64,000 bases of DNA from assembly GCA_022706765.1 (NCBI GenBank), contig JAKJBX010000002.1, positions 62,001 to 126,000 on the forward strand, written 5' to 3'. Each line of letters begins with the position of its first letter. Positions within the stretch are counted from its first letter, which is position 1. Shown here piece by piece: positions 12,765 through 49,331 of this stretch. The position numbers were made by a program, and so were the translations under genes. This DNA comes from Bacillota bacterium. GTDB lineage: Bacteria > Bacillota > Clostridia > Monoglobales > Firm-18. The notes under the pieces are model-generated. The model was not told the DNA's origin. It made no database searches and was given only the letters and a program-made list of their open reading frames with translations.

Positions 12765-13099
12765 TACGAGTAAGCCAGATGGTCGCGGCGGGCGATAAGC
12801 CCGACGAGGAAAGTCCGAGCTGCACAGGGCAAGGGTGCCGGGTAACTCCCGGTGGAGGCGACTCCAAGGACAGTGCAACAGAAATAGACTACTGCCGCCA
12901 CGGCAGTACAGGTGGAAAGGCGAGGTAAAAGCTCACCGGCGGTCAGGTGACTGACCGGCCATGTAAACCCCATCCGCAGCAACACCGACAGGGGTGCCGG
13001 CCCGGCATATGCCCCGAAGGGTGGCTTGAGCGGTGCAGAAATGCATCGCCTAGATAGATGACCGTCCAATACAGAACTCGGCTTACAGACTTGCTCGTA
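12765..13099 (+). ncRNA. rnpB: RNase P RNA (bacterial, type A-like)
   Basis: The catalytic RNA that matures tRNA 5' ends. The conserved segments are present in order: GAGGAAAGTCCGAGCT (CR-I), GGTGGAAAGGCGAGGTAAAA then GCTCACCG (CR-IV region) and AGATAGATGACCGTCC plus ACAGAACTCGGCTTACAG (CR-V). The ends pair as helix P1 (TACGAG-AAG with CTT-CTCGTA). Exact 5' and 3' ends are estimates from that pairing. Confidence 0.95.
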
Positions 13100-13106
13100 A
13101 CCAAAA

Positions 13107-44729: not shown

Positions 44730-44829
44730 CTTATAGGAAATTTGACAAATTTCCTATAAGATAAAAGCAATTAATTCATTCCCTGGCAAAGGGTTTCGGC
44801 TGCGCACCTAAAACGCCAAAGGCGTTTTG
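44730..44829 (+). repeat. Dispersed hairpin-core element R1, copy G
   Basis: CTTATAGGAAATTTG and its exact complement flank a single base (44730-44760). Then come the core (AATTCATTCCCTGGCAAAGG, TTTCGGCTGCGCACC) and AAAACGCC AAA GGCGTTTT, the same final hairpin as copy A. It lies in the cysK leader, divergent from cysK. Confidence 0.85.
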
Positions 44830-44979: not shown

Positions 44980-45426
44980 ATGAGGATATCCGCAAAGGGC
45001 AGGTACGGGCTGGCTGCCATGATCAGCATGGCGCAGAACATGAGCCATGACCAAAACATCACCATCATCAGTATATCAGAAAGACTCGGGATTTCCAAGA
45101 TTTATTTAGAGCAGGTTTTTGCGCTTTTAAAGCGTGCGGAGCTGGTGGAGTCCGCAAAGGGGTCGAGTGGTGGCTATCAGCTCATAAGACCCGCTGAAAA
45201 AATCACCGCATATGACATCATCTCGGCGATAGAACAGCTGCTGTTCGAGCCGACCAAAAAATCGCTGTCGGACGACGCCGAGCCGATTGAAAAGGCGATG
45301 CAGCGCCGCATCTTTGAGCCGGTGGACGACGCCATAACCGGCGCGCTGCAAAAGGTCACGCTTGCCGATTTGGTCAGCGAAGCCGAAAGATACGGCGGCG
45401 GCGAGAGCATCATGTATTATATATAG
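44980..45426 (+). CDS. cymR: Rrf2 family regulator, CymR-like
   Basis: The 148-residue winged-helix regulator begins MRISAKGRYGLAAMISMAQ and has ISISERLGISKIYLEQVFALLKRAELVES and the wing GSSGGYQLIRPAEKITAYDII. It has no cysteines, so unlike IscR or NsrR it cannot hold an Fe-S cluster. This is typical of CymR, the repressor of cysteine metabolism that senses O-acetylserine through CysK. It sits between cysK (divergent) and metY and shares a dyad with both. GGAGGGAAGG precedes ATG 44980. Confidence 0.88.
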   Translation: MRISAKGRYGLAAMISMAQNMSHDQNITIISISERLGISKIYLEQVFALLKRAELVESAKGSSGGYQLIRPAEKITAYDIISAIEQLLFEPTKKSLSDDAEPIEKAMQRRIFEPVDDAITGALQKVTLADLVSEAERYGGGESIMYYI

Positions 45427-45447: not shown

Positions 45448-45476
45448 TTGACAAAAGCAGGCTCATACTGTATGAT
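45448..45476 (+). promoter_or_regulatory. metY promoter
   Basis: TTGACA (45448-45453), a 17-nt spacer and TATGAT (45471-45476). Confidence 0.85.
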
Positions 45477-45478
45477 TA

Positions 45479-45499
45479 AACATATAATTCATATATGTT
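45479..45499 (+). promoter_or_regulatory. 21-bp dyad (CymR-type operator) at metY
   Basis: AACATAT-N7-ATATGTT, 2 nt after the -10 box, with TTA/TAA extensions on both sides. Confidence 0.7.
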
Positions 45500-45523
45500 T
45501 AATTTATTTAAGGATGTGTTGGT

Positions 45524-45574
45524 ATGTTTAAGGTTTACCTCAGCATAGGCAATTTTATGTGTTGCCGCTTTTGA
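45524..45574 (+). CDS. Cysteine leader peptide (16 aa) of the metY attenuator
   Basis: The short ORF encodes MFKVYLSIGNFMCCRF and starts at ATG 45524, with AAGGATG ~7-10 nt upstream. Tandem Cys codons (TGT TGC) stand three and four codons before the stop, preceded by Met. This is the arrangement expected of an attenuation peptide that stalls ribosomes when Cys-tRNA is scarce. It lies about 40 nt after the predicted transcript start and ~170 nt before metY, with several alternative stems in between. Confidence 0.65.
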   Translation: MFKVYLSIGNFMCCRF

Positions 45575-45592
45575 TTTTATGACAGCTAATAC

Positions 45593-45720
45593 TGAGCCGC
45601 ATTTAATTTGTTCCCTTAGCGCGGATCAGTCAATACTGTTTTCCGTAAGTAACGACCGCTGATTGCGGTCGATATAGACAAACTTGTTTGTCTATATTTT
45701 AAATGAAAAACAGTATAAAC
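45593..45720 (+). promoter_or_regulatory. Structured metY leader with terminator-like hairpin
   Basis: Following the leader peptide are CTGAGCCGC/GCGGATCAG, GACCGC TGATT GCGGTC (45654-45670) and ATATAGACAAA CTTG TTTGTCTATAT with a T-run (45672-45700). The last is a plausible intrinsic terminator or start-site blocker. ATACTGTTTT (45633-45642) can pair with AAAACAGTAT (45707-45716) around them. Confidence 0.55.
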
Positions 45721-45746: not shown

Positions 45747-47048
45747 ATGAGCATAAAAAGAGCGGAAAGAAACCTGAAATTTGAAACCTTGCAGGTGCAC
45801 GCCGGTCAGGAGCAGCCCGACAGCGCGACTGATGCGAGGGCGGTGCCGATCTACCAAACGACGTCGTATGTCTTTGCCGACACCTCACAGGCGGCGGGAC
45901 GCTTCGGACTGTCCGAGCCGGGCAATATCTATACCAGGATCATGAACCCGACCTCGGACGTCTTTGAAAAGCGGATCGCGGCGCTCGAAGGCGGAATAGG
46001 TGCGCTGGCGGTCGCATCGGGCTCGGCGGCGACGACTTATGCGGTGCAAAACATCGCGCACAGCGGTGACCACATCGTGTCGGCGTCGACCATCTACGGC
46101 GGTACATACAACCTTTTTGCCAATACCTTAAAGGATTTCGGCATCACCACGACCTTTGTCGACCCCGACGAGGAGGGCAGCTTTGAGGCGGCTATCCAGC
46201 CGAACACCAAGCTGATTTTCATCGAAAGCCTCGGCAACCCCAATTCCAATATCATAGACATCGCAAAGCTGGCGGAGATCGCGCACAGGAACGGTCTGCC
46301 GCTGCTGGTCGACAACACCTTTGCCACGCCCTATGTGCTGCGCCCGATTGAGCACGGCGCGGACATCGTCATCCATTCGGCAACGAAGTTCATTGGGGGA
46401 CACGGCACCTCCATCGGCGGCGTCATCGTAGACGGCGGCAGGTTCGACTGGGCGGCGTCGGGTAGGTTCCCGTATCTGACTGAGCCCGACCCGAGCTACC
46501 ACGGCGCACGCTTTACCGAGGTTGCGGGCGCGGCGGCGTATATCATCAAGGCACGCGTTACCCTGCTGCGTGATACGGGTGCGGCGCTCTCGCCGTTCAA
46601 CGCTTTCCTGTTCCTGCAAGGGCTGGAAACCTTGTCGCTGAGAATTGAGCGTCATATTGAGAACACCAAAAGGGTCATTGAGTTTTTGAGAAGCCATCCG
46701 CTGGTCGACAAGGTCAATCATCCGTCGCTGCCTGAAAGTGGCTACAAGGCGCTGTATGATAAATACTTCCCGAACGGCGCCGGCTCGATTTTCAGCTTTG
46801 AAATTAAGGGCGGCGCCGACAAGGCAAAGCAGTTTATAGACGGTCTTGAAATCTTCTCGCAGCTTGCGAACGTAGCCGACGTGAAATCGCTGGCGATCCA
46901 TCCCGCCAGCACGACGCACTCGCAACTGAGCGAGGAGCAACAGCGATCAGGCGGCATCAAGCCAACCACCGTCAGGCTGTCCATTGGCACCGAGCACATC
47001 GACGACATCCTCTTTGACTTAAAAGAAGCCTTCGCGGCAATCGCATAA
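45747..47048 (+). CDS. metY: O-acetylhomoserine aminocarboxypropyltransferase (sulfhydrylase)
   Basis: The 433-residue PLP enzyme starts MSIKRAERNLKFETLQVHAGQEQPDSATDARAVPIYQTTSY, the typical MetY N terminus. It contains NPTSDVFEKRIAALEGG, ESLGNPNSNIIDI, the PLP lysine in IHSATKFIGGHGTSIGG, and HPASTTHSQLS. It makes homocysteine directly from O-acetylhomoserine and sulfide. It is longer than the neighbouring cystathionine enzymes, as is usual for MetY. ATG 45747 is chosen because AAGGAGCGG is 7-8 nt upstream. Confidence 0.95.
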   Translation: MSIKRAERNLKFETLQVHAGQEQPDSATDARAVPIYQTTSYVFADTSQAAGRFGLSEPGNIYTRIMNPTSDVFEKRIAALEGGIGALAVASGSAATTYAVQNIAHSGDHIVSASTIYGGTYNLFANTLKDFGITTTFVDPDEEGSFEAAIQPNTKLIFIESLGNPNSNIIDIAKLAEIAHRNGLPLLVDNTFATPYVLRPIEHGADIVIHSATKFIGGHGTSIGGVIVDGGRFDWAASGRFPYLTEPDPSYHGARFTEVAGAAAYIIKARVTLLRDTGAALSPFNAFLFLQGLETLSLRIERHIENTKRVIEFLRSHPLVDKVNHPSLPESGYKALYDKYFPNGAGSIFSFEIKGGADKAKQFIDGLEIFSQLANVADVKSLAIHPASTTHSQLSEEQQRSGGIKPTTVRLSIGTEHIDDILFDLKEAFAAIA

Positions 47049-48413: not shown

Positions 48414-48449
48414 AAAATCGTTAAAAAAACATCGAAAAGGTGAATGGGC

Positions 48450-49331
48450 ATGGAAAAATATCAAGAGGTCGAAAAGAGCATCATCAAAAAGTTCCGCCGT
48501 ACGATTTGGAACGGCTTCGTCACGGGCATTAACCGCTACAAGCTCATTTCGGAGGGCGACCGCATCGCCGTCTGTATATCGGGCGGCAAGGATTCCATGC
48601 TGATGGCAAAGTGTATGCAGGAGATCCAAAGACATGGCAAGTACCCTTTTCATTTGGAATTTCTGGTGATGGACCCGGGGTATAACGCCGCCAACCGGCA
48701 GATGATCCTCGACAACGCCAAGACGCTGAGCATCCCAATCACCGTGTTCAAGTCCCGGATTTTTGACGTTGTGGCGACCATGGACGGATCGCCCTGCTAT
48801 ATATGCGCACGTATGCGCAGGGGTCACCTTTACAGCTATGCGCGGGAGCTGGGCTGCAACAAAATTGCGCTGGGGCATCACTTTGACGACGTTATTGAGA
48901 CCATCCTGATGAGTATGCTGTACGGGGCGGAGGTCAAGACCATGATGCCCAAGCTGCACAGCACAAATTTTGAGGGGATGGAGCTTATCCGCCCAATGTA
49001 TATGGTGAAGGAGGAGGACATTCTGGCGTGGCAGCGCTACAACGGGCTGAATTTCATCCAGTGTGCCTGCCGATTCACAGAAGCATGTTCCCATGAAGAA
49101 AACACCGGCGCCTCCAAACGCCTTGAAACCAAGCTGCTGATCCAAAAGCTTCGGACGATTAATCCCTACATTGACAAGAACATCTTTCAAAGCGTGCACA
49201 ACGTCAACCTCGAAACGGTTATCGGCTACCGCAGCAAGGGCGTGCGCCGCAATTTTTTGGACGACTATGATGATGTTAATAAAAAAAGTATTGACAAAAT
49301 TACCGATCAGGCATATACTGATAATAGTTGA
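48450..49331 (+). CDS. ttcA: TtcA-family PP-loop ATPase (tRNA thiolation type)
   Basis: The ~293-residue N-type ATP pyrophosphatase has PP-loop SGGKDSMLMAK, a CYICARMRRG Cys pair, LGHHFDDVIETILMSMLY, and a later CACRF. The three cysteines suit the [4Fe-4S]-dependent TtcA/TtuA group, which thiolates tRNA bases. TtcA itself forms 2-thiocytidine 32, but the exact target here is unproven. ATG 48450 is preferred over 48444 for its spacing from AAAAGG. The 3' end contains the cadC promoter. Confidence 0.85.
   Translation: MEKYQEVEKSIIKKFRRTIWNGFVTGINRYKLISEGDRIAVCISGGKDSMLMAKCMQEIQRHGKYPFHLEFLVMDPGYNAANRQMILDNAKTLSIPITVFKSRIFDVVATMDGSPCYICARMRRGHLYSYARELGCNKIALGHHFDDVIETILMSMLYGAEVKTMMPKLHSTNFEGMELIRPMYMVKEEDILAWQRYNGLNFIQCACRFTEACSHEENTGASKRLETKLLIQKLRTINPYIDKNIFQSVHNVNLETVIGYRSKGVRRNFLDDYDDVNKKSIDKITDQAYTDNS
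49291..49319 (+). promoter_or_regulatory. cadC-cadA promoter
   Basis: TTGACA (49291-49296), a 17-nt spacer and TATACT (49314-49319), inside the last codons of ttcA. Confidence 0.8.

Follow-up and report, generated by a model that had tools for sequence, protein, structure and literature searches.

A probable leader peptide and an inserted mobile element upstream of metY in a clostridial genome

Layout of the metY locus

Does a short open reading frame (ORF) with tandem Cys codons upstream of metY form a cysteine attenuator together with the hairpins that follow it? This was proposed in an earlier note on the window, by which we mean the whole stretch of clostridial DNA that was analysed (64,000 nucleotides), and the features that bear on the question are collected in Table 1. 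The ORF itself was confirmed as described: MFKVYLSIGNFMCCRF comprises 16 codons from the ATG at 45524 to the TGA at 45572-45574, has tandem Cys codons after a Met, and is preceded by a ribosome-binding site and a promoter. The same note had postulated a CymR-type operator on this transcript. A perfect inverted repeat is indeed present, and stretches of the AAACATACTAAACATATAGG type occur at the equivalent place in the metY upstream DNA of relatives; the name CymR, however, is not upheld, as the adjoining Rrf2-family regulator scored 100 bits with the CymR model against a cut-off of 195. On the other side of this regulator a long palindrome, CTTATAGGAAATTTGTCAAATTTCCTATAAG, is located at 44732-44762 and is followed by an A-rich stretch, directly before the start of cysK on the minus strand.

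Table 1. Features of the metY locus in window coordinates
Feature	Position	Strand	Basis
Rrf2-family regulator adjoining metY (CymR/IscR-like)	44980..45426	+	TIGR00738, above cut-off
metY promoter TTGACA-17-TATGAT	45448..45476	+	11/12 consensus matches
Perfect 10-bp inverted repeat TTAAACATAT-N7-ATATGTTTAA, candidate operator of the adjoining Rrf2-family regulator	45476..45502	+	sequence
AAGGA ribosome-binding site of the leader ORF	45510..45514	+	sequence
Leader ORF MFKVYLSIGNFMCCRF (then stop), Met-Cys-Cys at codons 12-14	45524..45574	+	sequence, shuffle test, relatives
Left target-site duplication TAA	45587..45589		element-end alignment
126-bp MITE-like element, ends TACTGAG...AACAGTA, holding all hairpins	45590..45715	+	copies, duplications, fold
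Hairpin ATATAGACAAA/TTTGTCTATAT, inside the mobile element	45672..45697	+	sequence, folding
Right target-site duplication TAA	45716..45718		element-end alignment
metY, O-acetylhomoserine sulfhydrylase family	45747..47048	+	TIGR01326, 655 bits (cut-off 495)

The hairpins between leader and metY

The hairpins downstream of the leader ORF are those of a 126-bp non-autonomous transposable element that sits in the short spacer between the stop codon of the leader and the ribosome site of metY. When the genome of origin was searched with the leader, an 87% identical copy of 45587-45719 was recovered on contig C22. This second copy, at about 2574-2700 of L006 (minus strand), lies between ORFs that resemble rpsU and yqeY, both named by eye from the sequence, and this setting has no connection to cysteine. 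In a sister genome of the same family (G001; L184-L211) at least 51 pieces were counted, and full-length copies there reach 99% identity with the query. Alignment of the element ends revealed inverted termini (TACTRWT...AATAGTA) and 3-bp TNA duplications, and the duplication flanking the window copy, TAA/TAA, is perfect. MITEs with 3-bp TNA duplications and IS5-type ends are short, non-coding and present in many copies with terminal inverted repeats, and the window element resembles them in all these respects and in its target-site duplication. Tested as a MITE or mobile palindromic element, it displayed dispersed near-identical copies, terminal inverted repeats and a target-site duplication alike. 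Some of the pieces in the sister genome are arranged in tandem or are split by inserts of ~110 bp, which suggests recent activity of the element.

The element folds with -42.6 kcal/mol (z -6.3), a stability usual for palindromic elements of this kind, and now lies within the 5' UTR of metY. Since all of the hairpins reported in the earlier note, including ATATAGACAAA/TTTGTCTATAT, fall inside it, the mobile element explains every one of them. The hairpin series is real and strong, and what has to be given up is its interpretation as a dedicated attenuator. Neither can ATATAGACAAA/TTTGTCTATAT with its T-run be upheld as a terminator: a copy of the element stands in an unrelated operon, the T-run is merely TTTT, and the element hairpin was not called in a terminator scan. 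The same findings make a classical Cys attenuator, in which the position of the ribosome on the Cys codons would select either an antiterminator or the ATATAGACAAA terminator, very improbable, despite the tandem Cys codons near the end of the ORF and the strong hairpins downstream of it. The locus is thus a cautionary case of how a mobile element can pass for attenuator hairpins. A different proposal is that the element has taken over, so that its hairpins would now serve metY as an attenuator, a transcript stabiliser or a processing site. We give this only a slim chance: a fold of such stability inside the 5' UTR speaks for it, as does the location of both copies examined in this genome just before a gene, whereas the element also occurs in unrelated contexts and we saw no sign of co-adaptation with metY.

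Leader peptides upstream of metY in related Clostridia

MetY homologues were gathered, together with their upstream DNA, from named genomes and from the window's own family, order and class. Missing conservation of the short ORF or of its Cys codons in relatives would have spoken against the earlier note, which withstood this check: many related Clostridia carry an ORF with a ribosome site shortly upstream of metY (mostly at a distance of 33-104 nt), and in many of them one or more Cys codons come after a Met, as in MTQYITLCCYDERMCCC, MKTIVFIMAMKNSRDIRMCCCQ and MRKFSDIFNTARRMCRC. Leaders of type A, such as MSFIFEKLVRSNYRFGRM, MEVKLLHNRFYLLRHNWRYGRM and MKNYFESLVRANFRFGRMCFCCK, end in RxNxRxGRM, with R, N, R, G, R and M invariant in the alignment, and the Met is followed by a stop codon (TGA or TAA) in 24 of the 38 distinct leaders and by Cys codons in 12 of them. 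Leaders of type B are shorter and Cys-rich and contain RMC(x)C near their ends (MTQYITLCCYDERMCCC, MKTIVFIMAMKNSRDIRMCCCQ and MGECYIFRMCLCCCGK); MKTIVFIMAMKNSRDIRMCCCQ comes from the same family as the window. A search of 391 genomes with a type-A profile yielded about 30 sites at E < 1e-4, nearly all before metY. Single matches stand before the genes for a sulfonate-binding protein of the SsuA family (L288), a lipoprotein of the MetQ/NlpA family (L295) and a sulfate-binding protein (L299). A DNA pattern used to find RM leaders elsewhere in 51 genomes had been convincing only at metY, and it was the peptide profile that later found the three uptake genes. Among close relatives, 57 of 94 differences between leaders fall on third codon positions, and 50 codon changes are synonymous and 22 non-synonymous in comparisons that are few and not independent; the excess at third positions fits a translated peptide.

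The relatives also allowed us to evaluate the DNA between leader and gene. Their spacers are short and mostly AU-rich, commonly with about 20-25% GC, and no terminator was detected between leader and metY in the spacers examined, with the exception of one genome (L256/L297), where the leader MNIIFAMLRRNYRNGRMCLCMCTR is followed by a GC-rich terminator-like hairpin with TTTT before metY and may possibly represent a true attenuator within the family. This genome lends the classical Cys attenuator some support, and the remaining relatives, whose leaders lack terminators, count against it: of the components of such a system, the short ORF with regulatory codons was found and a dedicated terminator and antiterminator were not, so that the terminator part of the earlier note is not supported. 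The idea that the leader masks the ribosome site of metY was considered and rejected as inconsistent across relatives, and no conserved RNA structure connecting leader and gene was found in the relatives compared. A small hairpin around CGAATG was likewise discarded, having only a slight advantage over permuted flanks (22 of 300 were equally good). No T-box, SAM riboswitch or other relevant Rfam RNA was matched when the window was scanned with gathering thresholds and the leader with relaxed ones, nor did the Rfam covariance models give any relevant match in 20 related leaders. Elsewhere in the window, RNase P RNA class A is found at 12767-13101. A c-di-GMP-I-GGC riboswitch match lies near a related metY locus (L131, 1118-1197, minus strand), and the metY leaders of L224, L244, L246 and L250 resemble SAM-I riboswitches by eye.

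How well, then, does the window ORF agree with this family? It has a ribosome site and Met followed by Cys codons, and its distance to metY is 43 nt when the insert is discounted, which resembles the spacing in relatives. With type B it has in common position, length, ribosome site and Met-Cys-Cys; the CGA-Arg is not shared. The relevant codons read TTT-ATG-TGT-TGC, with no CGA-Arg before the Met, unlike the rest of the family, and the best match of the type-A profile in the window's own genome had E = 0.18 and left the window leader unmatched. What assigns it to the family is therefore where it lies, how long it is, its ribosome site and Met-Cys(-Cys). The missing CGA-Arg and the lack of a profile match would also be expected if the ORF had arisen by chance and the real leader had been lost on insertion of the element. 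This we regard as improbable, given that position and length agree with relatives and that, when 45490-45589 was shuffled 20,000 times by dinucleotides, 0.14% of the shuffles contained an ATG ORF of 10-40 codons that had a ribosome site and Met-Cys, and 0.01% one with Met-Cys-Cys; with Cys-Cys as the sole sequence feature beside the ribosome site the figure was 0.24%. Because ORFs with Met-Cys or Met-Cys-Cys are so infrequent in shuffled DNA, the window ORF merits attention, and it is probably a genuine member, if a worn one, of a conserved family of cis-acting regulatory leader peptides in gut-type Clostridia that appears to be undescribed. We read it as divergent or decaying since Met-Cys-Cys is kept and CGA-Arg is missing. 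In the simplest reading the leader is divergent and may have been decaying since the element parted it from metY. On balance we thus lean towards two unrelated features at this locus, a divergent or decaying member of a family of stalling leaders and an inserted 126-bp element.

In Actinobacteria, leader peptides with Cys codons precede sulfur genes, among them the cys operons of Mycobacterium, where no terminator was found (PMC1262725), and Cys leader peptides of this phylum are also the subject of Canestrari et al. 2020, as cited in PMC9094748. The clostridial leaders are similar in that a short ORF with Cys codons near its stop has sulfur genes downstream and no terminator was found; Cys codons in runs close to the leader's stop codon, ahead of a sulfur gene, are a feature of the window and of its Cys-rich relatives. 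They differ in belonging to another phylum and to a family with an invariant CGA-AUG that often has no Cys codon, and in having a ribosome site where the mycobacterial Cys ORFs are leaderless. No GRM-like leader was detected in the actinobacterial metY loci searched, and no leader peptide was matched by Pfam or NCBIfam. Streptomyces may have leaders that end in a motif similar to GRM. We found no description of an RM-type leader family of Clostridia in the open-access literature, to which the search was confined; the RM-type leader of Clostridia is apparently undescribed, although an earlier account may exist.

The CGA codon and proposed ribosome stalling on the leader

The 38 distinct type-A leaders had been selected on their peptide sequence, with no DNA pattern involved. 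In all 38 the Arg before the Met is encoded by CGA; at the two other conserved Arg positions all six codons are in use, and in the metY genes downstream of the leaders CGA accounts for 11 of 344 Arg codons (3%). CGA is also present in type-B leaders. Conservation in this family reaches codon choice, and not the residue alone. Stalling at CGA was reported in a Salmonella his-leader assay (PMC4046918), runs of CGA do not impede translation in B. subtilis (PMC10454642), and thiolation of C32 in tRNA-Arg(ICG) blocks the reading of CGA in E. coli (PMC5372741). The genome of the window, in which tRNAs were checked stretch by stretch, contains tRNA-Arg with anticodons TCG and ACG, and in this species CGA has been lost from the leader. 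In G020, which has a type-A leader, we found tRNA-Arg with ACG, CCG and CCT and none with TCG. A pattern for the TCG tRNA matched in 59 of the 391 genomes and in none of the 30 type-A genomes of the sample (Fisher p 0.006, kinship ignored), and its absence from seven further type-A genomes brings the count to 0/37. Three type-B genomes (G002, G023 and G037) have the TCG tRNA and still use CGA, so that the rare-codon reading is suggestive for type A and unneeded for type B.

We propose a working model of how the leader would be translated, where the ribosome would stall, what would be sensed and how metY would respond, built on the computed ORF, family, neighbouring genes, CGA bias and marks of transposition. 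A ribosome on the leader would meet a slow CGA-Arg codon, then Met and then one or more Cys codons or the stop codon, and it would stall in the CGA-AUG region under a shortage of sulfur amino acids, with Met-tRNA and/or Cys-tRNA low, or on sensing of a signal by the nascent RxNxRxGRM peptide. A stall near CGA-AUG-UGN would in turn make the sulfur gene, 40-100 nt further on, more strongly expressed, probably by protection of the mRNA, easier initiation or coupling to the polymerase rather than by a classical terminator switch; protection or coupling is favoured because the spacers of relatives mostly lack a terminator or consistent occlusion of the ribosome site. In the species of the window, where Met-Cys-Cys is kept, CGA-Arg is gone and the element intervenes, regulation would be reduced to weak sensing of Cys/Met or lost. 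Sensing of Cys, and perhaps Met, through tRNA charging had been suggested in the earlier note and is plausible for the family, although the Cys codons cannot be the whole story: many family members have none, 24 of the 38 RxNxRxGRM leaders stopping right after the Met, and Cys charging is hence not the sole signal. Stalling that depends on particular codons towards the 3' end of a short ORF, as we infer it here, resembles attenuators of the trp/his type, which differ in that no antiterminator/terminator pair was found in the clostridial family save the terminator-like hairpin in one relative. Tandem Cys codons in an upstream ORF are also known from the uORFC-8-2 motif before cysS in Rhodobacterales, for which sensing of tRNA-Cys charging has been proposed (PMC8632094); that motif has a conserved terminator stem, precedes cysS, and has no reported RM motif.

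The main rival to codon-driven stalling is nascent-peptide arrest, in which the trigger would be the nascent RxNxRxGRM peptide itself, sensing a signal (a sulfur metabolite) from within the exit tunnel and arresting translation once the stop or Cys codon is reached. The arrest-peptide leaders TnaC and SpeFL have conserved C-terminal residues and an adjoining stop codon. The clostridial leaders are like them in the conserved C-terminal residues beside the stop, and the six invariant residues at fixed spacing, together with the many leaders that end right after the Met, would suit such a mechanism; they are unlike them in that one Arg codon is itself conserved, which a pure peptide sensor would not require, and the RxNxRxG part is missing from the Cys-rich type and from the window leader. 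We therefore hold arrest of this kind to be possible but unlikely. Returning to codon-driven stalling, its most specific form would be a codon-level sulfur sensor, in which the invariant CGA, read in these genomes mainly by a wobble-inosine tRNA-Arg, precedes Met-Cys or the stop codon and sulfur status sets the speed of reading via Met/Cys charging just after the slow codon or via sulfur-dependent C32 thiolation of that tRNA. Hints in its favour are the lack of a TCG tRNA match in the 37 type-A genomes and the loss of CGA in the window's species, which has that tRNA; we advance this as a distinctly speculative idea with little chance of being correct. The constraint on a single codon and the conserved C-terminus make the question of what is sensed testable by synonymous changes. 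If the model is true, gut- and rumen-type Clostridia would use leader-peptide control of sulfur assimilation at a position that in some other Clostridia seems to be occupied by a SAM riboswitch. A TtcA-like protein, which scored under the curated cut-off of this tRNA 2-thiocytidine family, is encoded at 48444-49331 of the window, close to metY, and is relevant because C32 thiolation affects the reading of CGA in E. coli.
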